Assembly (NCBI GenBank): GCA_000310025.1
Contig: FN649730.1
Coordinates: 361,041 to 425,040 of the forward strand
DNA from: Ectocarpus siliculosus
Taxonomy: Eukaryota; Sar; Phaeophyceae; Ectocarpales; Ectocarpaceae
Length of the DNA: 64,000 bases
Direction of reading: 5' to 3'
Shown piece after piece: positions 23,251 to 49,200 of the stretch. Below the pieces are notes generated by a model. It was not told the DNA's origin. It saw nothing but the letters and a program-made list of their open reading frames with translations, and made no database searches. Position 1 is the stretch's first letter. Each line of letters begins with the position of its first letter. A program made the translations under genes and the position numbers.

Positions 23251-23299
<49 letters not shown>

Positions 23300-26200
23300 C
23301 TCCTGCAGGGGATGCACGCACACACGTACCAGGGGGGCGACCTCGGAGAGGAGATGTCGCACATCCAGGGAGCCGTTGTGGTCCGCAGGCCCGATCTGGT
23401 GCGGGCCCCCGGATCCCTGGCGCCTGCCCACGACCTTGACTTCGTCAAGACGTTTCAGTCCTATTTCCAGATCGCGCAAAGCTCGCTGCTAAGGTGTGTT
23501 GTTTCTCCTTTCCATTGTAGTCCGTTCGTGAGTAATCTTGAGCGAAAGACAACTGAACCCATCTCTCGTTACAATACGAACAGATGGGAGGCTGTGTGAC
23601 CTCGGATCGGAGCTCATTTGTTGGAGAGGAAAGAATATAACGTTAGGTAGAAATTGCGAGCGAGAGTAGACGGGATGAAGAGAACAATATAATGGTCGCC
23701 GATGTGGATGCTCGTTATTGCACAACGTTATGTGAGGTGCGGATGCAACTAGCGTATGCACCTCTGCGTGGATAAGTTGAACTGGAGGATCGGATCTCAC
23801 AGTACTCCCACCTCCTAGACGTTCTTACAGTTTTCCTGTCGTGTGCGTGGAGATACTAACACCGACTGGCTTATGTTTGGTTGGGCTCACGGTACGGCAG
23901 TTCAGGGCGACTGCGGCATGAAACAGTCGGTCATTATTTTTTCGCCTCTCGTGAAAACGGCGTGGCGATTTGTCCCCCTCACGCAACTATGTACGACATA
24001 TGTTCTCTACCTTCAAGCTCTACCAAGCTTCAAAATGATCGTGAAATCCGACGAAACCCGAAAATTTGCGTTCTTCTCACCCGCTGCCAAATTATTCAGC
24101 CTTCTGAAACTGTTAAAAAATCAGGCGACAGCGTGTTGGTCATTAGCATTTGCGTTGTTATAGGAGCGAAATCACGGCTGCCCTTGCAGAGCCATGCTTG
24201 TTTATTCCTTAAGAGTCTGCTGAAACAGGCCGTGCTAAGAGTTTTTGCTCTGTTGTCGGAGCTCGCTGCGTCCCTGTAGCATAACGCATCCCCATCCTCT
24301 CGCCGCGGTTTTATCATAACCTGTTGGAACAGGCGATTGGTTGAGGCCGACGGGTTTAACTTGACGTCCACGACCCAGCACGTGCTTCCGGCGTTTAAGG
24401 AGCTGTTTGTTGCCACTTCTTTCTTAGGTGCCGTTCGTGAGGGCAACCCTGCCGCAGCAGAGTGAGTGACTTCAACCTCTGGTGTCCGAACATACAAATG
24501 CAACGTTTTTGTTCTACATATGTTGCTGAAACAATTTCTTTGACCGTCAGTTTTCTTGTGTACCAGGGGCCGCACGGACGCTGCTCTTGCACGCCCGGTC
24601 TACTTCGTGTACTGCCCAAACTGAAAAGCTCAAGATGGAGAGAAGCGAAAAATAGTGCACCCGATGCATATGCCTTATTGGTATGGACTGCCGAAATCGA
24701 GTATGTTTGGGATCCAGAAATATATGCGACATATCTGATGCCCGGCTACATCGCTAGTACGAGCGAGGCGCTCCCTTTGTTGAGGAACCCGTGTGCGCAC
24801 GACCGCATGTCACGCCAAGCGGCTACCAGCGCGGCGTGAGCATGGGTTGTGCCTGATTACCCGAAACTCAACTGTCTCTTCGGGCTTATGACACGAAAGC
24901 AAGGGAAGTAATGATCATTTTCGAGTGGGCAGGCTCTCCATGATTTGTTCCAAATTTTGAATTCATCCGATCACAACGTTCTTTACAATCCGTAAACTGG
25001 TGACACACGTTGGGGTTCTTTTTTTGATGTGCTACCCCCGTTTCTTCGCTCCTTGACATTCTCGTTGGTAACTGCCACACCCGAGCAAGGCTATTGACCC
25101 CGTACTGTTCGGGAGAGGACCCAAGGCGAGACATCGAGGAGTGCGTGAGGATCCCTACGTTGGTCAGCATGGCAAACGTGTACACTAACAAGAAGGGGGC
25201 CGTGTGGAACGAGAATGTGAGGAAGAGCACCGTTGGGACATTTTGCTAGGTGGAGGGAACGAGTGTGCTTACTCCTTCTTTCTTCGACTGTTTTTTGCCT
25301 GGGCGCCCCGGTGTCAAGCGACTAGGTTCTCAATATCGACGGCGTGTGTTGTCACGAGCCCTACAGTAGGTACAGGCATCGATGTACCACATATCCGACA
25401 GACACGTGCGTGGTGTTGATTTGCAGCAATCGAAGTGGTACTTCGTGTTTTCCAGGGTGACTGTTTATTGTGCAGACATCCGAACGAAGGCAATGGTGTG
25501 TTGTTTTTTATAACGTTGTGGGGGGAAACGGTCCCTTTTATAGTCTGTAGTTTTTCACTATAGAGTGGTCTGAGGCCCTGAGGATGAGGCGGGATGATCC
25601 GGAAGCAACAACAGCAACAAGAAGAAGAGTGACGTGCTTGCAAGATAAACATGGAGCAGCAGTTTCTGAACGATACACCTGTTGCTGTTTTGCACCACCA
25701 GTTCCTACCACTGTTGAATATTTTCCTGACGACGAAACATCCGTTCTTGCCTCGTCCCGTTGGGGGGGCGGGGGGGATGTTTTTTCAACTTTCCCGATCG
25801 ACCCTATGCAGGACTTTATTATACCGGTGAATTGTCAGGGACCAGTACGCCATGATTTCGATTTCGCCCGACGAATATCCGCGCATGGTTTGCCGACAAG
25901 CCTCCTCAACTACGACAAGGTATTGCAAAAACACTAAATATTAGTAAGAGAATAATGGTGGACGGTAATGTCGTTCGGCCGCGGCGGAAAGGATACTATC
26001 ATGGAGGGGAGCGTATCGATTGAAATTGGCGGAATTTCGTGTTTGGTTCTTGGCGCATGCGTACGACTTTGCCCAGCAAGCTTGATGCTTTCGTCGAGCA
26101 CATGGTGGATACCACGAGTTAGTACGGTGACGGCACGCACGATTGCATCGTTGGAATGTGCAGGGGGGACGTTGTTGTGGTAAACTATGTTTTCGATTTT

Positions 26201-29200
26201 AGCGACTGTTGTTTTGTGTTTGTTGCGCCACACGGTCGAAAAAGGGAAGAAACAATTTTCATGTTGAAACCCACATTACTCTGCGCCCTGCTTGCGGTCG
26301 TCGATAGCTGTACATGACATGAAGAAAATCTGCGTCTTAACTCAACCATTCTTGAGTAGTTTCGGTTGACACCAAGCCAGAGTTGCACAGCAAAGCCTAT
26401 AGGCGGCCCACCATTCCTTCTGCGTTAAATTTAGCCCCGACAACACGACAGTATCGACACGAGAATTGGCCGCATCTCACGCTGCACATTAAATGGACAG
26501 GGCTTGAAGCCGAACAACGTACATACTGTTGAGCCGATCACTCAAGTTTCAGCTTGTCGTCGAATCGGTCATGCGTCTAGCCCTCCTCCGTGGTTGTCGA
26601 GCTACATGGTCTTCAGACCCATGAACCTATCAGCGTCTCCCTTCGGCTTACCGCTGTCCGACCATCAATCGCCTGTGGCTGCCTCAGGTGTTCGTGATGA
26701 CCCAGGAGTGGACCCCGAACTACTACCACTTTACGGTGGAACATCTTCCGCGGATCACTTTGGGGCTAGATATCCTTCTCGAAAACCCAGAAATCATGGT
26801 GAGTGCTGCGGTATGCCTTCCCCGTTTTTCACCACCTAGACTACATTTTCAGTTTTTTATGCATGCCATTTTGTTCAAGGTCGCTGGAAACATGGCGAAC
26901 AAACAGTCGCCGTTGCTAAAAAGGGCATTGCGGGGGATCGCAAGGAATCATGTAGCTCTTGGCACCCCGGGCCGTGTGCGATTACCAGTATCCTGGTGTA
27001 TGTTGCGTGACGCGGAATGCAGGATCCCAAGTTGGGGAGCAGGAGGACGAATCATGTGGCTGTGTCTTGGTCTCAGTTCCTTTGTCATTACCCGATCTGA
27101 TGAGGTTATCGCGAACGACGCCGGTGTGGCACATGCGTCTCACTGCCGTAGAGGGGGGGACGTAGCCTTCTTTTCTGGCAACGAGCAACTAGACTTGCGC
27201 AGCTACCGCATGGCTGATCGGCTAGGGTTGCGTTTTCGAGGTCACAAGGGCGATCAGGATGGGAGAGGGAACATTCGAGTGCGGAGTCGGGGGTAAGAGC
27301 GAGTGGCGGGGCAGTCGGTCTTGTTGTGGAGCTGTTATCGTGTCATGCGACGTTGCCCGACTCCGCACAACTATTGTCTTTCCGCGAGAAGGAAGGGGCG
27401 GTACCCGTGGCGAAGTACACTAGAGCGCTTACTGCGCTAAGAGAAGTCGTCGCCGAGTCCGGGCGAGACCCCCCCAACACTATGCATCACATTCGCTACG
27501 AATCGCGGGCGCTACGACTTTGGCATCCGGCGGGGACATTTCTGAGCGGGTAATTCAAAGAGAAGGAAAACGTTCTTCGGATATATACAAGCAGTACGCT
27601 CAGAACAAAATGGGGGATTCGAGAAGGGTGTCGCGAAAGCTGACGAATGGGAGTAGGTCAGAAGAATGACACCGGGGGAAGGCACGACATGGGGAACGAG
27701 GGGTCGACTGCGCGTAGGCAGTAGTCTGGCTGACTGCACGTGGGCAGTAAGTAGCCTGGAGTAGACCTCGCCTTGGGTGTAGTTAATGGTCGAGTACCAT
27801 TTGGGGACTTGGTCACTCCACACCCCTGCTTGCAATTGCAGTAGCCGGCTTCCCCCCGGCTGGATGTAGCAGATTTGCGAGCAGAGAGAGGGGGAGGATA
27901 GAGACAATTTTTGATGGGGAATCAGGCGCGATGCTTGTGTGTGCTTCAGCGCGGGTTCCCACCCCTTCTCTCTCTCTCGATCCTTGGTGATATAGAAACC
28001 GATAATGACCAAGCAACAAACAGCATGGATACTCGAAACGTCAGTTGAACGTTTGTCTTGGCTGGTCGTCAGCCGTGAAAACTGGTCGGAGCTCCGACTT
28101 GTCCAGAGCAGCTCCTGACGGCTTCACCGAAAAACCCGACAAAAACCAGCATCGATAGATACTTCTGCGCATGTTTGCCACAAGTTACAACCCACACACG
28201 CTGCCCACGAGAACCCAACGTGAGGAGTCATGCACGTGTATCTTCCCTGAAAAGCAGCTCGACGAGCAATGTGGGATATCTGTTGGTACCGGTGCTGTTC
28301 CTGGCCCTTCGGTGCCTATTCCTACGCAAATTCCCTTGTCGTTGGCGATCTCGCCCTTCTTGAACTCCGCTGCTGCCCCTATTTGTTGCTCTGTTCTCGT
28401 CAGGTCATGACATATGTGTCTTCATTTTCTCTTCGATTACGCGCACTATTTGGCGAGACACGGACAAACGCTAGACTAACCGTTGGTCCATGACATCAAT
28501 CGTCACATACGGATGGCCTTTTTCTCTCCTCGTGCTGTTCTTGCATGCCCGAACTAGACCTCGCTCGATTTCGGATGCCTATTCAACGAAACCTCGTTTC
28601 GGATGTAGCACCAATGAGACATATTTGACGTGATGCTATTGACAACGTGCTCCGCGTGTGTTCGAACAACTGCATGCAGATCTCAATGCATTTCTACCAG
28701 CGCGACCCACTACATCACGACATTTCGGCAGTGCAGGAAGTTCAAATGGAGATGCTTGAGATTCTGGGAATCAACAGAAAGCGCGTCGTCTTTGTAAATA
28801 CAGAGGTGGGGAAACAAGCACATGCTGTCGGTGATGGGTCTTAGTCGCTGTCGTTGTTTACCGCAGGGCATATTCGTGCGTTCACTAGACTGTCTTGATG
28901 CATTGAACTCCCAACCAACAAGAGATGTTGCGGTACAAAGAACGTCGGGTTAGGAATAGAAGGTTTGACATGCCATCAGACAGTTTCAAGCATCAATGGC
29001 TAAGATCGGATCTACTACGTCAGGCATGTGCCAATAATTCAATCGCGAGCTGGGTAAACATGAGCTTTGCGTAGTGGCCGTCGTGCCCGAAGGTTCGGGG
29101 GGAAACACCGAAAATAGGTCGGGACTCCGATAGATGATCGCTCCATCGAGCCACGTGTTTTTCGAACTTCGTTGACGGTACACCATTGTGATCGTCTCAG

Positions 29201-32200
29201 GAGTTAAACGATCGCTCCATCGAGCCACGTGTTCTTCGAACTTCGTTGACGGTACACCATTGTGATCATCTCAGGAGTTAAACGAGAGTCAGTTTACTCT
29301 TCTCAAGACTCGTAGCTATAGGGCAGGATTAATGGTGAAGTATCTGCCTTCGTCCTGCTGTTTGTTAGGTTTGATATTACGGATGAACTTAAGGCGGCGA
29401 CCCTAGATATAAGTATTGGTACCACCGGGACTAGGGAGGCACCGCAGTAGAAGTTTCTTGTTTCAGCTCGTATGCAGGTGCTTTGAATGTTGAATCCGTC
29501 GCCTGTACCCTTGCGCACAGATTCCGCCACGCCCCCCTCCCTGGCGTGGAGGTTAAAGCGAAATTGGGTTGTGTATTGTGGTCCCGGTGAGACTTGCGCC
29601 TTTTCGTATCTTAAGCCGGTTAGCACAGGTAGTTTGAATTCGGTGCCTGGATATCAACGAAGCATGCACACCCCTCGCGTGCGCTGACACTGAATCGTTT
29701 CCATCTGTCCGCCGGTCAGCTCGACTGAGTGACGCTTACTCATTCACAATCAGCAACTCGTTTTGTACTACTCGATACCCGCTCGCTGCAACGCTAAATC
29801 CGCTTTACCTCTCGGTCTCGTTTCCTTCCCATCCCAGATGCATGCAGAACTAGCGATTGTGCCGACTAGTACTAATTGCGGCGACCCCGACCTGCAGATG
29901 GTCAACATGCTCAGGAACAGATTCTTGCAGGTGGGGAGTAATTAATCGATTCAGTGGGGGCGGTTGCGGGCACGGGATTCTTGGTGATGTTCGTCGTGTT
30001 TCTGGCAGGAGTTGCCCTTGCTGTTTCTTTTCCAAATATTTCGTGTTTTTTTGTTTTTTTCGCAAAGATATCGATGCATGTTGGAGTCGTCCTGGTCGGG
30101 ATGGGCTGGCATTGCCCCCTCACGAAGCAGAACTTATCCACGTCATCGGCGACTGCTGCACTGTCTTCGCAGGGCCTTTTCCCGACCACGAATGGCGTTC
30201 CTCCTGCGCCACCCCGCCCGGTGATTGTGCTTGTTGTGCGCAACAAACTTCGGGGCCTGATGAATAACGAAGAGGTACGTGTACGTGCATCGTACACGCG
30301 CACGTTTGTTGGTCACTAAGTAGTATTGACTGCCGTTGCGTTCCTATCGGATGTTCGATGGACGGCGGCCATCTCTCAACCTCCGGTGAGGCTGATATCC
30401 TACACAACGGCGATGCGTATGGTGCACGCTAAGCCCGCCACATAGAAATACTGGCCGTGATAGACAGCGAAAGGCCACTGGGTTAAGAGAGAAGGAAAAG
30501 CACAAAGAGAATGAACCCTACAGAAATGTATGTACGTGGCTAGCCCGCTCACAGAGGGTCCACGGGGGAAGTCTCCTAGAACTTCGAGTGATCTCGAAGG
30601 ACAGTTGGGTTGTACGGACGAGGTTCTCCGATGCGCAACATCGATTAGTTGTCTTTGCTTGCATGTTTTTTAGTCGTGCATCATCAGGCAGTGCACGACA
30701 GATGGGCAGTGAGTAGAATAGTACAGACTCACGAAATTCTAAGCGTAATTTACAGGGTGGATGGGGTGTAGCCCGTAGTCATAGTACCCAACGCATCCCA
30801 TGCCGTTGGTATATGTTTTCATATCGCGATCCGACGTTGGCGAAATAGCGGAGTTTCTTTTTCTCGCTTGGTTGACTTATGCTGGCTAGTCATCATGTCC
30901 TGTCCGATGCAACACCAACAACTGACAATAATTCGAAAAATAGGTGAAAGAGGCCCTGGAGAGAAATTTTCCAAGCTTCGACGTGGTGGAGTTCTTCGGC
31001 ACAGGTTCTGTCCGTGACCAGCTCGAGACCTTCGCAACCGCGGCCATGATCATTGCTCCCCACGGGGCCGGGCTTGCCAACATGATGGTCGCGCCCCTGC
31101 ACACTCCGGTGCTGGAGATAGGGACGTTAGCGTGCCCCCCCTGCTTCTTGAGGCTCGCGTTGAAGGTACGGATTGGCCATAGGGATATGTTGCGCTATAA
31201 TGAATAAGTGGCCGGGAAGGGTGGGGAATACTTATCCCCAACTGCTTGTTTCTTCGCTGACGTTAGTGTGCTGCACGAACAAGTACTAGCATCCGAAATG
31301 GTGCTTATTGTCGATGTGCCGGCGGTGTTGAGTGCGCTGCCAGGCGGCAGGGCATCCGTGCAGTGTACGATATTTACTGAACGTATAGCAGAGAGCGCGT
31401 AGCCTATCCGAAACGGTTTGTGGTTCATTTCCGAATAATTGGTTGCTTCGTAGGTCTTCATAGTTGTGATAAGATAGTTGCTTCTTTGGCCGACGTTAGA
31501 CAATGAATCACTCACCACCAATTGCCGATCCGGACCGCCTTGTTCATGCCGCACCGACCGAACAACGTTTCCCGCAACCAACCATGACCGAAAAATAGCT
31601 CCACCACATCTACGCGAGACATCCCGGGGGCGAGTGGTCACAGACGTGCCATGCATGGTACCAGCCAGACGTCGATGAAATCGTCGAACTAGCAAGGTGA
31701 GCGAAACCTTGCTGGCGTTTCGTATACTTCTAGTGGTGTTCGTGTTCGTGTTATTGTTGTGGCAACGTATTATTATTTTGTCACATAAGAGTCCCTAGGC
31801 GTCTCCCGATGGCTGGCCGGTGTGGCTGCAACTAACATGTTTCGCATTGAATGACGACATGTGGTTAAGTCGTATATTCCGATTGTTGGGATGGCGAAGC
31901 TGGGGTTTGCAGCCGTGCCCAAGGCAGCTCTTCGCTGAACGGAGTGTAGTGGTCGGAATTATCTGTAGACGAAAGTACTCGAAATGGGTGGCTTCAAGGT
32001 GAGTGGCACGCATGGGAAACAGCCAGCAAGTGGGGGTTGGCTCGGGACGAATGTCGATGAAAGTTCCACTCTCGGCAAGGTTTCACGATCAGCGGGTCGT
32101 GCTCACCTGCATGGGCAATATTTCAAATCTTGTTTCGGAAGAACTCGTCACTGAGCATACACAGTCTGGTCTACCCACACTTGCACTTCACCCCCCCCCC

Positions 32201-32357
32201 CCCTCTCACCTAACGCTAATCTTTCCATGGTTTTTTCGAAACCGTTGCTTTCTTGATGCATCCGAATGTTTGCAGGGATCTCCTCGAGGCAAAACGCCAG
32301 GTAGGGAATGCCCTGGGGCTCCCTGAAGTAGCAGAAGCCCATCAAGAACACCCGTAG
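21956..32357 (+). CDS. GT61-family glycosyltransferase, gene B (13 exons)
   Basis: Proposed exons: 21956-22015, 22471-23052, 23309-23493, 24333-24461, 25090-25231, 25812-25919, 26688-26798, 28680-28805, 29838-29930, 30173-30274, 30944-31165, 31599-31696, 32276-32357 (TAG). They total 2040 nt (679 codons). Phases match gene A at every junction. The GT61 signature NYYHFTVEHLPRI is at about residues 413-425 and APHGAGLAN at about 584-592. Exon 2 encodes a polar stem with an Ala run from a CAG-like repeat. The last exon is 11 codons longer than in gene A. In exon 5 the GTAAAA donor of gene A is lost, and the frame requires GTTGGG three bases upstream, giving one codon fewer. Without transcripts the use of this donor is inferred. 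No inactivating change was seen. Predicted type II secretory-pathway enzyme; substrate unknown. Confidence 0.82.
23252..23295 (+). repeat. (CT)n microsatellite before exon 3 of gene B
   Basis: About 22 CT units end 13 bp before the CTGCAG acceptor at 23308. They take the polypyrimidine position, as in genes A and C. Confidence 0.95.
29136..29283 (+). repeat. 74-bp tandem duplication, only in gene B intron 8
   Basis: Two adjacent copies start GATCGCTCCATCGAGCC. Gene C has a single copy at the matching place (about 52163-52237), so the duplication arose after the B/C split. Confidence 0.9.
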
Positions 32358-32392
32358 TTTTCACGGTCCACCTCCGCCCGGCTTTACTGTTT

Positions 32393-32756
32393 TTCTCTTT
32401 TTCTCTCTTTTTCTGTGCCAGATGATCTTGTCTCTGCTTGCGTTGTGAAGTACCAAGATTGAACCAAGGGGGTGTACCTCTTTCTCTCCGGCCCATGATA
32501 GTGACTCCTAGACTCAGTTGATACCTCGCATAGCGCGCAGAGGGAGTGGAGGACTCCAGAATATCTGTCGTTGATTTCTATTGACTTGCGGACCCCTCGG
32601 GGCCAGTTTATTTGAGTGTACCTTTTTAGGGTAAGTTAACCTGTGACCACGGGAATGGACCGCGTCGAGTGTTGGATCAGTACGGACATACGAAGGTACT
32701 GGGTAGACAGAGATCGGAACGGTTTTTAATGTGAAGACAAAAACAACAACAACACA
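32393..32756 (+). mobile_element. R1 retroposon, 5'-truncated, beside gene B
   Basis: This 364-bp insertion starts just after the gene B stop codon. The matching place in copy 2 (about 55709-55715) reads straight through, giving an empty site. It is bounded by the direct repeat ACTGTTT (32386-32392 and 32757-32763) and ends in an A/C-rich (CAA)n-like tail. Compared with the long R1 copy it is truncated at the 5' end. It lies in the 3' flank between the convergent genes and could affect their 3' ends. Confidence 0.85.
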
Positions 32757-32847
32757 ACTGTTTCTGGGAATCCTCTCAGCTACCGGGGAGTGATGTTAGA
32801 CTTCCTATCGCGCACGGTCGCGTCCTGCACAGCCGGGACGGAATGCC

Positions 32848-33495
32848 TCAAATGTGTGCCAAGGCACCGGGACCGGGCAGGGGGGGCTTTTTGCCCACTT
32901 CTGCCGATCCAGATATGCTCTTTTGAGTGCGGAGGACAAGGTCCTCTCCGTAATCCTTTGGCGCAAATTCATCGCCCTCTTGCATGGCGATGTACACCTC
33001 CCTGAGGACGAAATTCAATGTTGTGTGTTTTTTCAAATATTATTGCCTGTGTACATGCTTGTAGTTGACCTATCTTTTTTTTCGACTCGTGATGCTTTGG
33101 GCTTTGTGTGTGGTCGTTCATGCGTGTTTGATTTCCGTGATTATGTTGTATAGCCCGCGCTAAGCAGCAGGCCGAAATCAAGCCAATAAACAACACGTTG
33201 GGTCCAAGGTCCTCTGGCAGTGCATTCATGTGTTGTGTTTTTTTGTGAGCGTCACCCGTGATGCTCACCTGGTAAATGAACCGGCGTCTTCTTCCTGCAC
33301 GAATGTCGCGAAAGTTCCTTCTAGGCCTCGGGCGATGTGTGCATCTGTAGGTATCATGGACCAGGCTAGGGGGCCGACCAATGAAAATACGAACACGCTT
33401 TCAATCATCGGGGTCCCCCGGCAGAGAGAGGGGGTTCTGACAAATGTTCCCAGATAAATGTTGGCCTGCTGATAACCCATGTTTGGTTGGATCAA
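32848..33495 (-). CDS. Unknown convergent gene, copy B (2 exons seen)
   Basis: Two minus-strand exons fit together. The upstream exon covers about 33269-33495 with donor AG|GTGAGC and includes ESVFVFSLVGPLAWSM and ARGLEGTF. The downstream exon is 32848-33001, with acceptor CCTCAG, and includes EVYIAMQEGDEFAPKDYG. Phases match across the junction. The frame is supported by the substitution pattern against copy A. I recognise no family. The 5' end is open, because further upstream exons could lie to the right. The gene faces GT61 gene B, and the R1 insertion lies between their 3' ends. Confidence 0.45.
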
Positions 33496-35386
33496 ATTGT
33501 TTTTGCGGGTTGTTCAATGGCAGCAGTTTCGATGGTGTGTTGGACTCCTGCCCCCTTCGGGATATGCCCTTGTCTCTTTCATTTTCTAGTAGTGTGCTGG
33601 CGCTTCCGTTGTTACTGAGCACGTGACACGGGCCAGATTTGCTCAGGTGATTCCATGTGACGTCAGAAACTAACAATAGCGGTGATTTGTTGCAATTTAG
33701 TGCTTTTCACTCAGACCCTAACCCTTGGGGTATGGCAGACCCAAGACCGTGTGCACCTCCTCGTGTTCCTGATGATGCGTTTATCGCGCCATTGCCCACC
33801 TGGATCTTGTGTTAAATAGGTGTTTCTTCTCTAAAATATACAAATGCGTGAATCCTGTTTGCAATGCTATCCACGTTACTGCTTATTTCAATATGTTGGG
33901 ATGGATTGTTCAGTGTAGCCATGCATATGAGGCGAGCGTACCGCGTTTGTTTCACGTCATTCTGAGTAAGGACTGGTTGTTAGGAATGCGTGCGGGAATG
34001 ACGGCCGAGCCCTCTCGTTAAGAAATGAAGTCATGCAAATCCCTTGTTTGTCTTAGGACGGATCTCTTGAGATCGGGAGGCAAGGCCGTAGCAGCGTAGT
34101 AGAACCTACGAGCCAGTGCCTGGGTGAATGACGAGCAAGTGCCCTATGTTGGCTCAGCTTTCGAGTTTGGGCCACGGGGCCTACCTCATATTTTACGCTT
34201 TTGTGCGCCACGTTTGTTTGTTGTCGACGAAATGGTGGTGGCGTTCATTTTCTTTTTCGGAAATAAATGCGTTTGCTAATGGATAGACAGCAGACAATAG
34301 GTATTTCCCCTTTGCTAATGGATAGCAGACAATAGGTATCATCATGTTTTTATATCCATCGTTTGTTGCAGCAAGGGAAAAATGTTGTTGCGGGTGTTAT
34401 GAGTTACAATCCATCGAAGAGTAGATCAACCATTCATTCGTCCGAAGACTATTACATAATATTAGCTTCTGTGTTCTAGTATATGTATACAGCAGGAAGA
34501 ATTGTACAGCCTAGCTAGGGTGTGCGGTTAGATGTCATAAATGACAAATCACGCATATGAACGTGCCACAAAGGGCACGTCATAACACCAGTCAGTTCAA
34601 CTAGGATACTTTGGCTACCACATGGGGCCGTCTCGAAGCACTGGCAAATATTAGGAAACAAAATACAAACACAGAAAGACTACATGTATGTACCCATTCG
34701 AGATAAAATACCACACACATGAGTCGAACGGCATGTGTTGAGGTCTTCACAGTGAATGGAGGGAAACCGGCTGGGTACTGGGCTTATTTGGAGTCTACAC
34801 ACTGCAGTTTTTCGATCAGTGGATGCCAGATGCCAGCAGGTACTAGACTAATCACAAAATCGCGGTATAGGTACAAATAAATACCACAAGACATCTCCTC
34901 CCCCGTATTGTTCTTTACCTACTGGGTCAACGACAAAATTATCGGGGAGAAACCCTCCGCTATGATATTCTGCCTTCACAGCAATACGTCGCAGTGTCTC
35001 TTGACAACTTGCTGGATTTTACTTATTTCTGCTGTTGTTGTTGTTGATCTACGATACACGGCAAAACTTCCAAATAAATCGAGGCGGATCAACTCCCCTA
35101 TGGCTTGCTCGGTTGGGTGACGCGTCTAGCCCCTGTCGGCTCGTTGAAGCCATCGATCTCGATAGCATCCACATTGTAGAACGTCAGCAGTGAAGGATAT
35201 CATCAGCAGCACATGTAGAGAAGAAGTGGTGCGGGTATCTTAACTGGTACGACCACAAAAAACATGCTGAAAAATGTTTCCCACCTGGGATAAATAACGT
35301 ATATAATCACCGAAACCACACTGAAACCCTTGGAAGATGACAATATATATAGCGAAGCTGCGCTACATGTTGTCATCTTCCATAGC
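33496..35386. other. Unassigned region, end of copy 1 and spacer
   Basis: To about 34265 this is the right-hand end of the duplication. From 34266 to 35386 the sequence is unique in the window. It includes an imperfect tandem repeat (TTTGCTAATGGATAG, about 34270-34340) and a hairpin with 12-bp arms GGAAGATGACAA / TTGTCATCTTCC (35332-35381). No gene is supported. Confidence 0.4.
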
Positions 35387-35956
35387 CCACACCCGTCCGC
35401 CGATATCCATGTTCGCCTGCAGACCACTGCTGTGTACTCCAGGCACCCGGCCACGCGGAGAGCAGAGGAACGGGGAACAGGCGCAGGAACTGCCACGCGC
35501 CACATCTCTATCCGCCCGCGGATGCTTGCTCTGACACTATCGTCATCATACGTACCAGTTGGAGCGGGAGCTGAGGAACCATCCAAGAGACTCTTAATTT
35601 TTTCAAGTGGAAACTGCTGTACTTCTACAGCGTTCTACAGGCCGGTTCTACAGCAGTACGTCGCTCACAGGCTGGTGCAGGTGACAGGCTGGTGAGGTGC
35701 GAGGTGTGCGCGTTGCATCATGACTTGTTGTATGCATAGCATCGACCGCGCAAACCGGCTGACCCGTGAATAGACATCAGTGCCAGCAGGGGCAAAGCCA
35801 AGGGGGGTCAAAACTCGAAAAAAGCCTCCTGGTTGTTGTTGTTGTCTTCACATTAAAAACCGTTCCGATCTCTACCCGGCACCTTCGTATGTCCGTACTG
35901 ATCCAACACTCGACGCGGTCGATTCCCGTGGCCACAGGTTGTTGTTGTCTTCACAT

Positions 35957-35997
35957 TAAGGTTAGGGTTAGGGTTAGGGTTAGGGGTTAGGTTAACA
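35957..35997 (+). repeat. Interstitial TTAGGG tract inside R1
   Basis: About four TTAGGG units follow a second, partial copy of the R1 tail (TTGTTGTTGTCTTCACATTAA, from about 35939). Other R1 copies run uninterrupted from CCACAGG to TTAAC here, so the tail fragment plus telomeric repeats is an insertion. Confidence 0.85.
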
Positions 35998-36063
35998 TAC
36001 CCTAAAAAGGTACACTCAAATAAAAAAGCCCCGAGGGGTCCGCAAGTCAATAGAAATCAACGA

Positions 36064-36428
36064 TGATCGATAATAATTCGGGTGGCTCAGTTCTGTGTGC
36101 TGGGAGTGTAGAGCAGCTCGGCCATGACGGGCCGTGGATGGGTAGAAAACGTGTTGGGAAACGTGTTGGGAAACGTGCTGTATTCTTCGGGGGTGTGCTT
36201 GCGCTCGTAAATCTGTCACGGCATCAAGGACGCGTCACGCTCATCACGGTTCGTTGAAGTACCAAACGCATCTCTCTGAATCTCCATCAAACTCTTCTCA
36301 CTTCGAAGGAAATTACCCAGAAAGTTCTGGTGGTCCATCCGCATCTCATCACTGCAATTTCCGTAGGTATGTGTACCAAAGACAACCCGTCGTACTATGC
36401 TACGAGTACACCCCCAATATATCGAACA
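36064..36428 (-). repeat. Copia 3' LTR
   Basis: It aligns along its length with 40347-40697 and contains the shared segment GTGGCTCAGTTCTGTGTGCT. It has an extra GTTGGGAAAC-type unit and other small differences, so the two LTRs have diverged since insertion. Confidence 0.9.
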
Positions 36429-36852: not shown

Positions 36853-37275
36853 CTATTTCTTCTCTACCAGCTCCCTAATAAAGTGATGCCGTACATCGAT
36901 GTGCTTCGAGTTGGAGTTCGTGATCGGGTTGTGCGCAATCTGAATCGCTCCCTGATTATCCTCGAACACCGGGATGCACGGCATACCCGCATCTGGCAAC
37001 ATAAAACGCCACACCTGCCTCAAGAACAACACCTCCTTCAAGACGTCGGCAATTGCCACATACTCTGCTTCCGTGGTGGAAAGCGTAACGCACTTCTGCG
37101 TCCTCGAAAACCAACTCACACACCCACCCGCACACATCACTAACCCTCCTGACACCGATCTACGGTCTGTCGCCTTGCTTGCATAGTCGGCATCCACAAA
37201 CTCCTGCATGCTCATCCCAATCACCACTCCCCTCTCAAATGTAATCCCCATCCAACTCGTCCTCCGCACGTACCC
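36853..37275 (-). pseudogene. Copia RNase H domain remnant
   Basis: The minus-strand frame shows the Copia RNase H pattern: DADYA near the start, then SVSGG, STTEAEYVA and EDNQGA, and finally KHIDVRHHFIRE. These correspond to the family's acidic catalytic segments and conserved C-terminal His region. The upstream continuation is cut by the hAT-like element at 37283. The domain itself appears intact. Confidence 0.88.
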
Positions 37276-37283
37276 TAAAATAC

Positions 37284-38592: not shown

Positions 38593-39650
38593 TAAAATAC
38601 CGAGTGCTGCCTTCCAGTGCACCATTTTGGCAGATGCACAATACCGCGCTACTGCTCGTACTGCGATCGCGATGTCAGGCCTTGTTTGAGTGGCCAACCA
38701 CATCAGAGATCCTGCCAACTCGCGAAAAGGGACATCAGCGCACGCTTCGTTCTCGTCAAAGTCGGTGAGCTTCACGCTCACAGGCAAGGGCACACTCCTC
38801 CCCCACTCAATGCCGTACTCTGCAGCCAACTCTTCGGCAAACCTCTGCTGCGAAATCTTCAACAGCCCTCTCTCTACGTCTCTCTCGTAAAAGCGCGCGG
38901 AGTATCACCTCAACTCTCCAAGGTTCTTCACGGGGACCATCTCGTTGAGATCCCTGCCAAACTTGTCACACCTCTCCTTCTGCCCTACAGCAAGAATGTC
39001 ATCCACGTGGACCACGATAATCATGATCACGCGACCCTCCTCCATCAATCGAAAAACACATGCATCCGCCCGACACTGCACAAAAACTAAAAGTAACAAA
39101 CACCTCGTCAGGTGCGCATGCCAATAATGTCGTGATGCCTGCTTCAAACGATATAGACTCTTGCAGAGCTTCACGATCAGCCCAGAAAACCTACCACATC
39201 CCTGCGCTAAGCGCATGAAAACATCCTCATCAAGCTCAGTCTTTGCACGAAAGCCTGCTGAATATCAAAAAGTCAAGATTCTGCTCACATGCTAATGCTG
39301 CCAACAAGCGCACACTAGACACTGATACGGTGGGTGCAAACAATTCTCCAGAATCAATCGAAGCCCTCTGCATGTCCCCCCGCGCTACAAGTCTTGCCTT
39401 GAATTTCGTCGGCCATCCGTACTCGTCTGCCTTACAGTTAAATACCCACTTAGCATTGATGGCGTTCTCCCCCCGCGCTACAAGTCTTGCCTTGAATTTC
39501 GTCGGCCATCCGTATTCGTCTGCCTTACAGTTAAATACCCACTTAGCATTGATGGCGTTCTCTACTGGTTGCTACACCGGACTAAAGTTCCTGCATCCGA
39601 CAAACCGAAAAACTCTCGACCGACTGCATCACCCCACAACTCTGAATGTT
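38593..39650 (-). pseudogene. Copia reverse transcriptase remnant
   Basis: Minus-strand frames read in Copia order. The N-terminal KARLVARG region lies at about 39380-39560, SLYRLKQASR and HVDDIL at about 38960-39170, and PFRELAGSLMWLA with TRPDI at about 38660-38760. Frame changes occur near 39240-39290 and 38890. The KARLVARG segment is tandemly duplicated in frame (93 bp, about 39378-39563). The polyprotein is therefore non-functional. Confidence 0.85.
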
Positions 39651-40257
39651 GAGACCGCATGGCCCCTTTTAACGTTTTCGGCACGCGGAGGTCGCTGGCG
39701 AGGCAGTGAGGAAGGTCCGGCATCTTGTCGGGCGGGCGCTCGGCGCGAAGAGCGGCGTCCACATCCTCGCGGGTGGCGAACATCGTTGCGAACATCTGCG
39801 GTCTCCCCCACCCCCCCCCCGGAATCCACGGCCCCCCCAGCTCCCACAGCCCCCCCGCTTCCACGGCCTCCAAGACTCGGATCCGGCTGCGGCCGGGGCG
39901 GTAGGTCGCGGCGTCCTTGATCTACGGCCTCCCGGGTGGCGAGCGACGAGATGAGGGTGGCCTTGTCCATCATGCTCAACAGCCCAAGGCGGTGGTGGAG
40001 AGCGGTGCCGCCACCCGGTGGCGACGGCGGTTGTTGTTGCTCATCCATGAACCGCACTCCATCGCCGCGCGTGCGGCCGTGAACCCTCGTGTCCTCTCGT
40101 TCCAACTCCTTGTTGACGGCTCGTTTTGTTGTCGTACCTCCATCTCGGCCAGCCTGGCCGCTAGCCTCTGACTCACCATCTGCTCGACCCGAGCCTCCTC
40201 AGCTGCTGCTTGCTCTGCTCGGCGGGCGTCGTCGCTCTCGCGCCCGGGTTCGGACAT
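39650..40257 (-). pseudogene. Copia gag-like N-terminus, truncated
   Basis: A minus-strand frame opens at 40257 just inside the 5' LTR and is rich in Ala, Glu and Arg, as in a coiled N-terminal gag region. It passes, with frame changes, into a low-complexity Gly/Pro-rich stretch and then almost directly into the reverse transcriptase segment. No zinc knuckle, protease or integrase is seen, which indicates a large internal deletion. Confidence 0.6.
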
Positions 40258-40346
40258 CTTGATCCTGCTCCTGATCGCCGCAAAGCGATACTCCGATAAA
40301 CTAAGCTAGACCGCGAATCTCGTAGACGACGTGTGATACGCTAGCG

Positions 40347-40697
40347 TGATCGATAATTCGAGTGGCTCAGTTCTGTGTGCTGGGAGCGTAGAGCAGCTCG
40401 GCCATGACGGGCCGTTGATGGGTAGAAAACGTGTTCGGAAACGTGTTGGGAAACGTGTTGTATTCTTCGGGGGTGTGCTTGCGCTCGTAAATCTGTCACG
40501 GCATCAAGCACGCGTCACGCTCATCACGGTTAAACTACCAAACGCATCTCTCTGAATCTCCATCAAGCTCTTCTCACTTCGAAGGAAAATACCCTGGAAA
40601 GTTCTGGTCCATCCGCATCTCATCACTGCAATTTCCGTAGGTATGTGTACCAAAGATAACCCGTCATATGCTACGAGTACCCCCAATATATCGAATA
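40347..40697 (-). repeat. Copia 5' LTR
   Basis: It is the partner of 36064-36428. Its outer terminus has changed from TG to TA on the minus strand. Confidence 0.9.
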
Positions 40698-41289
40698 ATC
40701 GACAGATATTCTGGAGTCCTCCACTCCCTCCGCGCGCTATGCGAGGTATCAACTGAGACCGCAGGAGTCACTATTATCACGGGCCGGAGAAAAAGAGGTA
40801 CACCCCCTTGGTTCAATCTTGGTACTTCACAACGCAAGCAGAGACAAGGCCATCTGGCACAGAAAAAGAGAGAAAAAAAAGAGAGAAAAAGAGAAAGCAG
40901 AGAAAAAGAGAACAAAGTAAAAAGGAAACAGTAATAAGGCTGAGTCTTACGGCGTGATTATTTCCGGATTGGATTTGGGGTGGGGGTCCTTTTCTGAGCC
41001 AAAAAAACATTTTGGGCTTCTTACGGGTACGAAAATGGCAATTTCCAACAGCCCAAATTCCAACAGCGCAGTTTCCAACAGCGATTCCGGCAGGCCTGTT
41101 AGACTGTTAGAACATTGGCCCATTTTCCAACAGCGATCCTGTTGGAATATCGCTGTATGAAGTGGGTGTGGGTAACCCCTGGTCACACCCCGATCGTGCC
41201 AGAACGAGGAACTACACCGTCTGCTGGCCAAACAGAGGCCAGTATCATGAGGTCATGCACAAACCCTCTGCAGGTATCTAAAATTCAGG

Positions 41290-42060
41290 GCGTTCTGCGT
41301 CGTGTTGACCGCACACGATCCGAAAACGTCAACCCTTCCACATTGCTCTGCTGACGTTCTTGCCTTTGGGCCGAAAAGAGCCGTTTTTGCGCCTGCTGCA
41401 TGTGTGACCAGTTAAAAACGCATGCCAGAGAGAGGCCTTAAGCCGTCGACATCCACAAACTGCAGCCAATGGCGTGTGTTCATACTCATACCCTCTACTC
41501 GCGTACCAGAAACAGAGCGTGTTGTCCAGTCTTGATTGCACACGGCCTGCAAACGTGAACCAAAGTGTGTTGCGGTGTTGACTTTTTGGTCTTTTTCCTT
41601 GTTCCGCCGCGTGTTTGCTCCGTGTGCCACCCGCGACCAGTCAAAAACGCATGCCAGAGAGAGGCCTTTGGCCGACGACATCCACAAACAGCAGCCACTG
41701 GCCTGTGGTCATACACATACTCTCTGCTCGCGTCCCAGAAACAGAGCGTATTGTCCAGTTTTGATTGCACACGGCCTGCAACAGTGAATCGAGGTGTGGT
41801 TCGGTGTTGCCTTTTTTGGACGTTGCTTTTTTTTCTGCCGCATGCTCCGAGTCGAGTGTGATCAGTGTACAACGCATACCATCAGAGAGAAGCCTTTGGC
41901 CGACGACATCCACAAACTGCAGCCACTGGCGTGCGATGATACACATGCCCTCTGCAGGCGACCCATAAATAGGGCGCTCGGTGTCTTGTTGGTCGCACAC
42001 GAGCTAAAACCGTGTACTGAATCATGTTGTGACTCGCAAGAACATGAATCAGCCTCTTTT
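41290..42060 (-). repeat. 228-bp tandem repeats inside R1
   Basis: The motif AAAACGCATGCCAGAGAGAG recurs at about 41415, 41642 and, diverged, 41870. It is accompanied by CATCCACAAACTGCAGCCA and CAGAAACAGAGCGT with a period of about 228 bp, for roughly three units. The shorter R1 copies lack them. Confidence 0.85.
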
Positions 42061-43159
42061 TTCCCTTCAGAAATAAGAGGCAGAAAAAGGCACACGGTGG
42101 AGAGACCACTAACGAACAAACTGGTACATAACACGCATGACATTATGGAACAGCGCCACCCAAAGGATCTGAGGCGTGTAGAATACAAGATCCCAAACAA
42201 CCTTCATCCCACCTAGACAGGAAGTTGAACAAGCCTCACCGACACATACGCGCATGCCCCTTCCATCTACAACTGCCATGCTCGCTTGTCGACGCTCTCG
42301 TACGCTATTGGCTACAGAGTACAGCCGTGACGCCATACATGGTCACCGAGACATGCCACTGCAAACTGGACCCGGGAGTACAATGTTGGTCCGCACCGAC
42401 CGTCACACACACAAACACAACACTCGACTACAGCTGTCTACGCGAAGTAAGCAGTATACCCCACCAGATCCCGCCCATCTTGCATGTACTTGCATACTTG
42501 CATATGTTAGGATAATGATACTCGACGCACACCGAGGTATGTACAACAGATACATGCACATAGCGCCCGCACTGAAGAACTTGGTGCAGAACTTCGTGCT
42601 CACTGCTGTGCGTTCTACCAAAAATTCTACCAAAAATGGAAGAACTTGAAACCTGAGCACCATTTTTGAGCCCGGTAAAGCCCCCGACACTATGTAGACT
42701 ACATGCGTCAAACGTTGTAGCGGCCAAGTGTAGGCCACAAATAAGGAGAAGTGAGAAACTCAAGAACTGAGAAACCCAGCCTCAGTCAAACCTTGGTGTA
42801 TAGCAGTCATGTATATGATGCATTCATGTGCCATTATTCTAAGAACTTCCTTCCACGTTTTGGCAATACTACACAATAATGAAACCGCACGTGCACGCAC
42901 GCACATCTATATATACAACAAACGATACACGAGGTTTTCGGCCCTTATTGCCACCGCCCCCCCAAAATTGAGTGATTTCAAGACAACACGCTCGACATAG
43001 AGCGCAGGGCAGGAACTCGATGAAAAAAGCGCTGTTGTCTTGACACCACACATGTACGCCATCCATTGGACGATGGCGGACGTGATTTTTTTGTTGGTGC
43101 TGGGTTTTGGTGTGCAATAGCTTCCGCTACAGGTCTTCCACACTTTCGTTTTTTTTCGT

Positions 43160-43512
43160 AATGCACCCATGGGCCGCCCATGAACTTCCCAAATACCCAT
43201 GGACAGCCCGTGATGGTCTCCCCATGGGAAAACCCATGGGGCGGCCAACGGTGGGCACCCTGTCAGCAGTTCATGGGCAGCCCAAGATCCGTGGGCAACC
43301 CATGGACTCCACACGATACGTTCTAGGTTGGCGCTGGGTGGCTAAGTTCTATGCTGATGAGCCGATGACTATGTTCTAGGTTGATATGCCGGTGGCGGGT
43401 TCTAGGTTGAAGTGCCCACGGTAGGCACTTCGTGGGCAGTTCTTGGGCCGCCCATGGGAATACCCATGGGCTGCCCATGAAGTGCCCATGGGCGTCCCAC
43501 GGGCGTCCCATG
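43160..43512. repeat. GCCCATGGGC palindrome arrays, copy 2
   Basis: Two blocks (43165-43305 and 43410-43512) correspond to those at 19735-19880 and 20310-20522. The spacer is about 100 bp instead of more than 400 bp, and the second block has fewer units, so the arrays have changed in length since the duplication. Confidence 0.85.
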
Positions 43513-44927
43513 GGCGGTCTAGCGAAACTGCCATGGGTGTGGGAGATTGGGGAGATTAGGTTTCCTCCCACGACCAGCGCCGCGGGCGATTCATACGCGT
43601 AGGTCAAACGAGGACGAACGCAACAATGTCTTCTTTGTCTGAAAGAATGTTGGGCACCAGCATCGAACGACAATACACACATTAAGAAGTACACCCTGCC
43701 TGTCGGTGTCGGCTCTAACATAATTAGATAATGCCGTCATCGCGCGACATAGTGGTCCTCATCATTGTAGGTGCATGTGGGGCCGATTTTTTTTCCCTAG
43801 TGAATCCGCCGCAGACCCCACCGACATGGACCGAACCAACAAATGCATATCTTATCCGGGTAGAGCTCGCAATTCACATCGTGCTTGCGTTAACCTGTAC
43901 AACCAATCTTGCGGTATGCTCTCTTCATGGTCGTTTTGCGCGAGGATGCAACAAAGAGAGGTGCTACTGAACGGTGCTGGATTACAATAAACGTCCCAGC
44001 AACTGTTGTTCAGATAAACAAACCCTTCTTCTTTCTCCGATAAACTGAAAGACTCGCATCGCCAAGGAACCCTAACCCTAACCCTAGTTACATGAATTCT
44101 TCCCGCCGTGCGCAACTAGGCTGACATTGCAGGTAGGTACGCGTGAAAATCAGTATACGACGTGTTTTGCCTCGACGATCTTTGTAAGGGCATATTTTTG
44201 TCTCCTCGCCCGTCCTACCGTTCATCAATACACAGGGCGTTTTGTTGTTGTTGTTGCTGGCAAGACGTTGGCAAAGCACCGCGGAAGAGAGAGTTTCGGG
44301 TGTAACACGGCGGGCTCTTTTCATTTCGAATCTTCAACTTACCGGGGAGGACTTCGCATGCACGTGGTCTAGACAAGGGTATATCTCCTTCTGACCAATC
44401 TTGAGTATATGAGATGTTCGAATTCCGTCATGTCGCAACGTGTCTGTCGGAAACTGTGAAACATCCTTTTTCACATACCATCTCTCAAATAGCTGTATAC
44501 TCGTGGATTCTTCAGGGGTAAGGCGTACCAGATCGAATATGACGGGGGGAGACGGGGGGGAGTCAGCCATACAGCTGTCATGATTCTACTCTAGAACGTC
44601 TGCACTCAGCAACAATAGCCACACATGCCTATCTCTAAATGGACTAATTCAAGTATTTTCCAACATCGTGCCCTTGGTATGCGTATGCGAATCGCGCATC
44701 CGTAACCCCACCGCAGTTTATCATCAACGTCATCGAGTTCCGAACGAATGCTTCCAGCCTAATCATGAGGACTTGGGCGCCTGGCGGCGCCAAAAATCCG
44801 GAGCCCTTTGTATGAACGTTTTGTTGCACCGTGGTCTAACGCTGCCTGTTTGTGTGAAACTGTTGGGACGACGCTCCCCCGAGCGACAGGAAACTCGCCG
44901 CGCACGCCGCGCACGCAAGAGGAACGT
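43513..44927. other. 5' flank of GT61 gene C
   Basis: It is nearly identical to 20523-21955, with no independent gene. A CCCTAA tract (three units) is at 44068-44087. Confidence 0.4.
44068..44087. repeat. CCCTAA telomere-like tract
   Basis: Three consecutive CCCTAA units at the position where copy 1 has a degenerate version. Confidence 0.7.
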
Positions 44928-46219
44928 ATGAGGAAAATGGGGCGAACAGGCTCCACAACTAAGAAATGGACATCAAGATCGGGGCAGGTGGGCATCATAT
45001 CCACCCAACAGGCAAACATACAGTCTAGGGGATACGCACAGTCTAGGGGTTATCCCGACGCCCGAAACGCCACGAGTCTGTTGACACCGAGGAAGAGGTG
45101 GTAACATGTGTTAACATCCTCGATCTTGCTGTTAAGGTCAGCCTCATGTTTACCGCTTGGATGGCTAACGACTTCGCAGGGCGAACCATGAAGGAAGGTT
45201 TAGCAGACAACGTAGATTCACATCGTGTTGGCCGTTTCGTTGAAATACATTCACAATGCCGACTGCAGCCGGAAGTATTTGTAGTTCGCACGATGTCAAC
45301 CGTGGAGTCGAAATCGCAAAATCGTGCTTGCCGCGGGTACCCTGCCGGACCAAACACAATGACGGCAGGGAAAATGTCGCTTCCCACACTCTGTACTTGT
45401 TCGTTCACCTTTGATGTTTCTCCCGAACGCGCGGCGCAGGGACTCTTGCTGACGATGGTGCTCGTTCAGAACTCCTTGACAGTGCCACCAGCCCTAGCCG
45501 AGAAGTTTCCAATCATTGGACTGAGGGGCGGAAAGGAGGATGAAACAGCAGCAGCAGCAGCAACAATAGCATCAGGGCAAGATTTGCCTCGCCCAAACCG
45601 ACTACGACGCGAAGGATATCCGTCCTCGCGAGGAGACCGCCAACGTCACCAACAGCTGCGGACAAAGCAGGAGCGTATTCCGTATGCCCCGGTATCATGG
45701 AACCACCATGACCAGCAGGAGTGGGGGCAAGAGCACCGAAAACTGGACAGAACAACGAAAGGGGATCCAAAGCTCTCGTTAGAACCAGAGATCCTAGAAG
45801 ATGGGAATAGTACCTTGATTTACCGCGCTGCCACCACACCTCCAACCAAAGGTATGTGTCCGGTTGCCCTCCATAACTCCAACGCTGCGGTACTGCGAGA
45901 AGACCGGGATAACGCCGCGCCGTCGACTGTGATTGCCGGCGCGTTGTCTGTGTGGAAAAGACTGCGGCAGGCCGCAACCGCACCATCTCGACTGCGATGC
46001 CCGAGCCCGCCGTGCTGTCTTGTGAGTGTCAAACCTGCTGCCACTGTCACTGGATATCAACATTACCCATAAATCGATTATGAGTGTGTACTGCGGTCGG
46101 TTGTTCACTCGTTTCCTCCATTTAGTTTCTGGTCTTACCACTGTGCTAGAACTCCCGCTTATGGTTTTGCTCCGGCCTGTGCCCACCCACAAGCATGCAC
46201 CTATGTATCACCTCCACCT

Positions 46220-46268
<49 letters not shown>

Positions 46269-49200
46269 CTCCTGCAGGGGATGCACGCACACACGTACCA
46301 GGGGGGCGACCTCGGAGAGGAGATGTCGCACATCCAGGGAGCCGTTGTGGTCCGCAGGCCCGATCTGGTGCGGGCCCCCGGATCCCTGGCGCCTGCCCAC
46401 GACCTTGACTTCGTCAAGACGTTTCAGTCCTATTTCCAGATCGCGCAAAGCTCGCTGCTAAGGTGTGTTGTTTCTCCTTTCCATTGTAGTCCGTTCGTGA
46501 GTAATCTTGAGCGAAAGACAACTGAACCCATCTCTCGTTACAATACGAACAGATGGGAGGCTGTGTGACCTCGGATCGGAGCTCATTTGTTGGAGAGGAA
46601 AGAATATACCGTTAGGTAGAAATTGCGAGCGAGAGTAGACGGGATGAAGAGAACAATATAATAGTCGCCGATGTGGATGCTCGTTATTGCACAACGTTAT
46701 GTGAGGTGCGGATGCAACTAGCGTATGCACCTCTGCGTGGATAAGTTGAACTGGAGGATCGGATCTCACAGTACTCCCACCTCCTAGACGTTCTTACAGT
46801 TTTCCTGTCTTGTGCGTGGAGATACTGACACCGACTGGCTTATGTTTGGTTGGGCTCACGGTACGGCAGTTCAGGGCAACTGCGGCATGAAACCGTCGGT
46901 CATTATTTTTTCGCCTCTCGTGAAAACGGCGTGGCGATTTGTCCCCCTCACGCAACTATGTACGACATATGTTCTCCACCTTCAAGCTCTACCAAGCTTC
47001 AAAATGATCGTGAAATCCGACGAAACCCGAAAATTTGCGTTCTTCTCACCCGCTGCCAAATTATTCAGCCTTCTGAAACTGCTAAAACAGCAGGCGACAG
47101 CGTGTTGGTCACTAGCATTTGCGTTGTTATAGGAGCGAAATCACGGCTGCCCTTGCAGAGCCATGCTTGTTTATTTCTTAAGAGTCTGCTGAAACAGCCC
47201 GTGCTAAGAGTTTTTGCTCTGTTGTCGGAGCTCGCTGCGTCCCTGTAGCATAACGCATCCCCATCTTCTCGCACGCGGTTTTATCATAACCCGTTGGAAC
47301 AGGCGATTGGTTGAGGCCGACGGGTTTAACTTGACGTCCACGACCCAGCACGTGCTTCCGGCGTTTAAGGAGCTGTTTGTTGCCACTTCTTTCTTAGGTG
47401 CCGTTCGTGAGGGCAACCCTGCCGCAGCAGAGTGAGTGACTTCAACCTCTGGTGTCCGAACATACAAATGCAACGTTTTTGTTCTACATATGTTGCTGAA
47501 ACAATTTCTTTGATCGTCAGTTTTCTTGTGTACCAGGGGCCGCACGGACGCTGCTCTTGCGCGCCCGGTCTACGTCGTGTACTGCCCAAACTGAAAAGCT
47601 CAAGATGAAGAGAAGCGAAAAATAGTGCACCCGATGCATATGCCTTATTGGTATGGACTGCCGAAATCGAGTATGTTTGGGATCTGGACATATATGCGAC
47701 ATATTTGATGCCCGGCTGCATCGCTAGTACGAGCGAGGCGCTCCCTTTGTTGAGGAACCCGTGCGCGCACGACCGCATGTCACGCCAAGCGGCTACCAGC
47801 GCGGCGTGAGCATGGGTTGTGCCTGATTACCCGAAACTCAACTGTCTCTTCGGGCTTATGACACGAAAGCAAGGGAAGTAATGATCATTTTCGAGTGGGC
47901 AGGCTCTCCATGATTTGTTCCAATTTTTGAATTCATCCGATCACAACGTTCTTTACAATCCGTAAACTGGTGACACACGTTGGGGTTCTTTTTTTGATGT
48001 GCTACCCCCGTTTCTTCGCTCCTTGACATTCTCGTTGGTATCTGCCACACCCGAGCAAGGCTATTGACCCCGTACTGTTCGGGAGAGGACCCAAGGCGAG
48101 ACATCGAGGAGTGCGTGAGGATCCCTACGTTGGTCAGCATGGCAAACGTGTACACTAACAAGAAGGGGGCCGTGTGGAACGAGAATGTGAGGAAGAGCAC
48201 CGTTGGGACATTTTGCTAGGTGGAGGGAACGAGTGTGCTTACTCCTTCTTTCTTCGACTGGTTTTTGCCTGGGCGCCCCGGCGTCAAGCGACTAGGTTCT
48301 CAATATCGACGGCGTGTGTTGTCACGAGCCCTACAAATATCGACGGCGTGTGTTGTCACGAGCCCTACAGTAGGTACAGGCATCGATATACCACATATCC
48401 GACAGACATGTGCGTGGTGTTGATTTGCAGCAATCGAAGTGGTACTTCGTGTTTTCCAGGGTGACTGTTTATTGTGCAGACATCCGAACGAAGGCAATGG
48501 TATGTTGTTTTTTATAACGTTGTGGGGGGAAGCGGTCCCTTTCATAGTCTGTAGTTTGTCACTCTAGAGTGGTCTGAGGCTCTGAGGATGAGGCGGGATG
48601 ATCCGGAAGCAACAACAGCAACAAGAAGAAGAGTGACGTGCTTGCAAGATAAACATGGAGCAGCAGTTTCTTGAACGATACACCTGTTGCTGTTTTGCAC
48701 CACCAGTTCCTACCACTGTTGAATATTTTCCTGACGACGAAACATCCGTTCTTGCCTCGTCCTGTTGGGGGGGCGGCGGGGATGTTTTTTCAACTTTCCC
48801 GATCGACCCTATGCAGGATTTTATTATACCGGTGAATTGTCAGGGATTAGTACACCGTGATTTCGATCTCGCCCGACGACCATCCGCGCATGGTTTGCCG
48901 ACAAGCCTCCCCGACTACGACAAGGTATTGCAAAAAAACTAAAAAGTAGTAAGAGAATAATGGTGGACGGTAATGTCGTTCGACCGCGGCGGGAAGGGTA
49001 CTATCATGGAGGGGAGCGTATCGATTGAAATTGGCGGAATTTCGTGTTTTGGTTCTTGGCGCATGCGTACGACTTTGCCCAGCAAGCTTGATGCTTTCGT
49101 CGAGCACAATGGTGGATACCACGAGTTAGTACGGTGACGGCACGCACGATTGCATCGTTGGAATGTGCAGGGGGGACGTTGTTGTGGTAAACTATGTTTT

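Follow-up and report, generated by a model that had tools for sequence, protein, structure and literature searches.

Why should two genes that are otherwise nearly identical differ most in one short exon? The question is raised by a stretch of 64,000 nucleotides of the Ectocarpus siliculosus genome (contig FN649730.1, positions 361,041 to 425,040; hereafter the window), which carries what is, by its sequence, a set of three tandem GT61 glycosyltransferase genes, here called A, B and C. The initial annotation had singled out exon 6 of B and C as hypervariable, and offered two readings: a loop that governs substrate choice and is under diversifying selection, or a tract converted from a paralogue that had not been seen. 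We have compared the three copies base by base and found that the differences between B and C do peak on exon 6, within a mosaic of low and high divergence (Table 1). We tentatively favour the view that this peak is an island of divergence held by selection on a fast-evolving exon 6 segment, within duplicates that have elsewhere been partly homogenised by gene conversion.

Exon 6 in genes A, B and C

The alignment of B with C bore out the annotated coordinates and counts for exon 6, including the two replacements caused by double substitutions and the single silent codon. The seven replacements are P/L and I/P (the double substitutions), R/H, H/R, F/L, L/P and N/D. Nine of the ten base changes are transitions and they run in both directions, and one-directional base deamination was accordingly rejected. 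Exons 3, 4, 5, 7 and 9 are identical in the two genes, as had been read by eye. Apart from exons 6 and 8 (Table 1), we have counted three differences each in exons 10 and 11 (two replacements in each), two in exon 12 (both replacements) and two in exon 13. Within exon 6, the seven replacements are confined to codons 9-33, the middle 25, and spare the 11 codons at the two ends (P = 0.08), where A and B follow a common pattern, D[FY]I[IL]P[VL]NC...Y[DE]K.

Table 1. Positions in the window of the exons, tracts and flanks discussed in the text.
Feature	Position	Strand	Remarks
Exon 6 of gene A	10634..10741	+	36 codons as in B; 8/36 residues common with B
Upstream flank of the duplicated block	18698..19883	+	70/1139 aligned bases (6.1%) differ from C
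Core of the block (probably homogenised), B copy	20341..31184	+	Against C 43380-54200: 218/10,676 aligned bases (2.0%), 2.5 gaps per kb
Near-identical tract, B	22553..23835	+	3/1283 differences (0.2%); most of exon 2, intron 2, exon 3, part of intron 3; from hidden Markov model segmentation
Exon 6 of gene B	25812..25919	+	36 codons, phase 0-0; acceptor CTATGCAG, donor GTATTG; open reading
Divergent patch, B	25814..25993	+	16 differences/180 bases, last six in intron 6; top 180-base window of the core
Exon 7 of gene B	26688..26798	+	NYYH motif: N194, H197 (numbering of the protein spliced from exons 3-13)
Exon 8 of gene B	28680..28805	+	4 differences from C (3 replacements, 1 silent); length differs from A by one codon
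Downstream part of the B block	31185..34264	+	Three aligned pieces, 4.4-5.8% from C; most of intron 11 and intron 12
Exon 6 of gene C	48817..48924	+	Against B: 10/108 bases, 8 codons changed, 7 replacements
Counterpart of the patch in C	48819..48998	+	From the B-C alignment

Gene A had been described as very different in this exon at constant length, and so it is. Between A and B, 48 of 83 nonsynonymous sites (N) differ in exon 6. The eight further exons in the comparison together give 90 of 799 (P = 4e-21), so that exon 6 is by far the fastest of the set. These tables of nonsynonymous and synonymous (S) rates (dN/dS) leave out exons 2 and 13 throughout, and those of A-B and A-C also exon 8, as lengths differ. 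In the middle 25 codons, the first, second and third codon positions match in 5, 7 and 12 cases out of 25, respectively. The first two are at chance level, while the third is better kept than the 6.8 matches expected by chance (P about 0.02). The eight other exons show the opposite, with the third position being the least conserved. The dN/dS comparison of the same codons gave a smaller P value (proportion of N differences, pN, 0.77; of S differences, pS, 0.39; pS of shuffled codons 0.73; P = 0.0007), and we have relied on the weaker third-position count. That the middle of exon 6 changes fast is an observation; that replacement there has outpaced silent change may be taken from these comparisons as a hint, not as proof.

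A and B agree well at both ends of exon 6, with 17 of 24 bases kept in the first eight codons and 8 of 9 bases at the other end. These kept ends, the constant length and the splice signals led us to reject exon 6 as a chance open stretch. Compensated frameshifts behind the A-B difference were likewise rejected, as a gapped alignment of the middle was no better than alignments of shuffled sequence (P = 0.68).

The spliced proteins matched the Pfam GT61 family PF04577 with 62.6 bits for A (exons 3-12) and 65 bits for B (exons 3-13), over a cut-off of 27. The Pfam scan covered A and B, and the C protein is 96% identical to that of B. Exon 6 encodes residues 148-183, just ahead of the NYYH motif as annotated, and lies directly N-terminal of the PF04577 match, which begins at residue 195. 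A structure-database profile search also paired residues 212-296 with cytochrome b5 reductases (E 0.02 or worse), which was taken as chance.

Two further traits of gene A were read by eye. Its last exon stops earlier than in B and C (15888-15936), and a shorter C-terminus is therefore expected for A. Exon 5 of A (9777-9819; B 25211-25253) is open past the GTGAGG donor up to a second possible donor, TTG/GTAAAA, which B and C lack; the donor common to the copies is likely AAT/GTGAGG.

A mosaic of divergence along the duplicated block

The duplicated block extends over about 18.7-34.3 kb in B and 42.1-57.6 kb in C, and the copies are 96% alike over 9 kb. The four pieces flanking its core (position 32393-32756 is outside the three downstream ones) show 4.4-6.2% divergence and 7.0-13.9 gaps per kb. 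The step between core and flank falls inside the gene, with 137 differences in 6820 bases (2.0%) in introns 2-10 against 49 in 962 (5.1%) in introns 11-12 (P = 2e-7). The hidden Markov segmentation switches between states of about 0.7% and 3.8%, and assigns brief, dense runs of 1 to 17 columns to a third one. The longest identical run between B and C has 653 bases (P = 0.0002 under uniform placement of the differences), and a CT array in the near-identical tract has 22 units in B and in C.

Exons other than exon 6 carry 17 differences in 1875 bases, compared with 180 in 7708 in the introns outside the patch. Purifying selection on exons only was rejected as the whole account of the identical exons, as near-identical tracts enter introns (22553-23835, 24796-25300 and 26515-27299) and divergence in introns 11-12 is 2.5-fold that of introns 2-10. 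Exon constraint may nevertheless add to the B-C identity. The mosaic itself is observed; as its probable cause we infer, from one sequence per copy, patchy gene conversion after tandem duplication.

Several points weigh against this account. Exon 2 makes up 514 of the 653 bases of the identical run, so that constraint may contribute to it. In the noncoding core, tested on columns away from gaps and exons, the differences are only modestly clumped (P = 0.03, 0.005 and 0.11 with 100-, 200- and 300-base windows). Outside exon 6 the N and S rates are equal (9/900 and 3/285), with no clear signal of purifying selection there. Lastly, the mosaic has been read from one sequence of B and one of C.

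The two copies also differ by local length changes. Intron 5 of C holds a perfect 34-base tandem duplication (48302-48369) that is single in B, intron 8 of B a 74-base tandem duplication (29136-29285) that is single in C, and intron 11 of C (54182-54961) has 780 bases versus 433 in B.

The island on exon 6 and its possible causes

The divergent patch reaches 74 bases into intron 6, contains no indels and is flanked by difference-free stretches of 157 and 277 bases, the next B-C difference downstream being at 26292. On its 5' side, the last 54 bases of the intron (25758-25811) carry two differences, at 25758 and 25772. Its divergence of 8.9% exceeds the 5.1% of introns 11-12 (P = 0.02). If the 273 differences were placed uniformly over the 11,837 columns of the alignment, at least 12 of them would fall into some 108-base window with P = 0.0044; exactly two places reach that count, one within the exon 6 patch and the other in noncoding DNA at 31193.

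The island is thus observed, and it is its cause that has to be weighed. A selection-held island would fit an exon that tops the block: an unconstrained exon would be expected to diverge at the rate of the surrounding introns (2%), and that exon 6 exceeds it counts for selection. The peak moreover lands on the very exon that stands out in A-B, a coincidence to which length alone gives a chance of roughly 3% (288/10,676 columns, reckoned after the fact). In the middle of exon 6, N sites differ between B and C at a rate of 9/55, which exceeds the 5.1% found in introns 11-12 (P = 0.002). Random placement of nine transitions and one transversion in exon 6 gave at most one third-position change in 8% of stop-free trials; the same placement gave at least seven replacements in 51% of them.

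A number of results count against selection as the cause. Over the whole exon, the B-C differences amount to 8.5/81.8 at N sites and 1.5/26.2 at S sites, with 6/74 in the intron, and N does not stand out from S and intron together (P = 0.43). In the middle codons, N is not significantly above the adjoining intron (P = 0.17) or the silent sites (P = 0.27), with P = 0.10-0.27 for the middle-only tests. The bootstrap interval of pN minus pS for the whole exon spans zero in A-B, A-C and B-C. Equally dense patches arise where there is no exon, as in intron 11 (12 differences in 108 bases at 31193, and 15 in 150) and in the flanks, where windows reach 23 differences in 180 bases. The differences are clumped along the whole alignment, and from the dispersion of 49 disjoint noncoding windows, at least 16 differences in one 180-base window somewhere have a probability of about 0.3. 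Because of these dense patches and this probability, the density of the exon 6 patch is by itself not remarkable; its position is more so. Diversifying selection on exon 6 is hence not demonstrated from B-C, and two results from A-B point towards the annotated reading, exon 6 being the fastest of the exons compared and the third positions being better kept in its middle. Selection as the cause of the island is plausible on these sequence comparisons.

The most serious alternative, which we consider possible yet rather unlikely, is a neutral island, in which the middle of exon 6 is unconstrained and happens to sit where recent B-C conversion did not reach, or in a local mutation hotspot. It agrees with the statistically similar N, S and intron rates, with exon 6 and the adjoining intron 6 diverging at the same rate (10/108 and 6/74, P = 1.0), with the similar dense patches in intron 11 and the flanks, and with the chance of such a window given above. 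Against it count the excess of the patch over introns 11-12, its position on the exon marked out by A-B, and the third positions of the A-B middle being better kept than first and second ones. The initial annotation had taken equal divergence of the adjacent introns as a sign of hotspot or conversion. This holds for the 3' intron and not for the 5' intron, and sharing the peak with an intron would not decide against selection, since a selected site in converted duplicates can sit in a wider divergence peak, as the available text of PMC3924837 describes. Some spill-over into the intron need not, on that analysis, refute a selected exon.

A conversion tract, in which an unseen third paralogue or allele replaced about 180 bases in B or C, appears improbable. 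The compact patch without indels and its clean 277-base downstream edge would suit such a tract, but the upstream edge is not sharp, owing to the differences at 25758 and 25772. Gene A was rejected as donor, as shuffled sequence aligns to the exon 6 middle of B just as well as that of A does. The paralogue proposed in the initial annotation did not turn up: no other copy was found in the 64-kb window, and neither viral contigs, prokaryote genomes nor phage records yielded a donor, a further paralogue for the exon 6 comparison or any relative.

Weak inclusion or skipping of exon 6 in B and C, leaving it free to drift, is very unlikely. The exon is symmetrical in its 36 codons and its donor matches GTRAGT at 3 of 6 positions, the poorest of the ten B donors listed, but the exon 9 donors of A and C are equally poor and exons 7 to 11 are also phase 0-0. 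Skipping, moreover, predicts intron-like divergence, whereas exon 6 is above the intron level, and its ends are conserved between A and B. Weakest of all is an assembly artefact, in which mixed reads of near-identical copies or alleles gave false identity and false difference: such mixing would be eased by the likeness of the copies and could be read into the equal CT arrays, but the exon 6 differences preserve frame and splice signals and spare the conserved ends but for one silent change.

We therefore rank selection-held divergence first, the neutral island second and the tract from an unseen paralogue third. Under selection-held divergence, B and C would go back to a duplicated block of about 15 kb, whose core would be held about 2% apart by patchy gene conversion while the flanks and last introns stay 4-6% apart. 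The exon 6 segment, just N-terminal of the GT61 domain, combines conserved ends with a freely changing middle of 25 codons, and the island would most likely be retained by functional divergence of this segment, with converted hybrids being lost there. A more specific proposal, speculative and rather doubtful at present, is that the middle of exon 6 forms an acceptor-specificity loop of the enzyme whose diversifying selection keeps the 180-base island open against conversion between the tandem copies. If selection holds the island, exon 6 would mark a stretch possibly setting the targets of the enzyme, with seven residues available for swap tests. If it does not, the locus is a caution that a hypervariable-looking exon in near-identical genes can be a leftover of patchy homogenisation. 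Among the matches listed in our literature search, there was no report on the B/C gene pair.

Other features of the window and comparison with known systems

Between B and C, two direct repeats of about 350 bases that are 92% alike (36064-36426 and 40347-40695) bound a stretch of 4.6 kb, and by sequence they resemble the ends of a long-terminal-repeat element. Of the six open frames of at least 170 codons in this stretch, five were scanned and gave no Pfam match. Related inverted pieces lie at 17019-17257 and 40694-40928. At 35956-35991, about six units of TTAGGG, which is the telomere repeat in many eukaryotes, form an interstitial run, and 59712-60650 and 62558-63339 are tandem arrays whose units measure 236 and about 230 bases, respectively.

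The closest enzymes of known structure are compared here with the three genes at the level of the GT61 domain. The metazoan EOGT and POMGNT2, as presented in the available part of PMC13123520, share with A, B and C this domain, an NxxH motif and the two arginines of the uridine diphosphate (UDP)-binding N-R-R set. Residues N194, H197, R316 and R320 are invariant across A, B and C. In the alignment, R316 and R320 fall on the arginine pair of POMGNT2, with a spacing of four as in R294/R298; when aligned to EOGT, the first arginine is displaced by one column. N194 and H197 were matched by spacing, without alignment, to N245 and H248 of EOGT, also three apart. According to the same text, N245 is the UDP-binding asparagine of EOGT, and H248 is the counterpart of the residue proposed as catalytic in POMGNT2. 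Judging from these kept residues, nothing would argue against A, B and C being active enzymes. The difference lies in coverage, as the solved GT61 chains (9wjk and 6xi2) match only query residues 295-412, and exon 6 has no counterpart there.

As for the mosaic, GOT1p1 and GOT1p2 of Tigriopus californicus resemble B and C in that strongly and weakly diverged stretches alternate between the two paralogues, which apparently undergo conversion, at least in the text available of PMC3728101; several populations were compared there, and a single sequence represents each of B and C.

The best parallel to the island is that of the human red/green opsins, for which the accessible text of PMC3924837 states that selection for difference can raise a divergence peak in duplicates under conversion, with exon 5 as the example. 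The duplicated opsin genes lie in tandem, some 24 kb from each other; conversion keeps them alike, and one exon carries a divergence peak. The B-C offset is about 23 kb, and low surroundings with a narrow peak on an exon are also present in B-C. The systems differ in that the opsin flanking introns are described in that text as low, whereas the peak in B/C also covers 74 bases of intron 6, and in that the functional effect of the opsin replacements is known and other primates show concerted evolution of the introns, while B and C are known from one sequence each. Were the acceptor-loop proposal to be true, exon 6 would be the enzyme counterpart of opsin exon 5.

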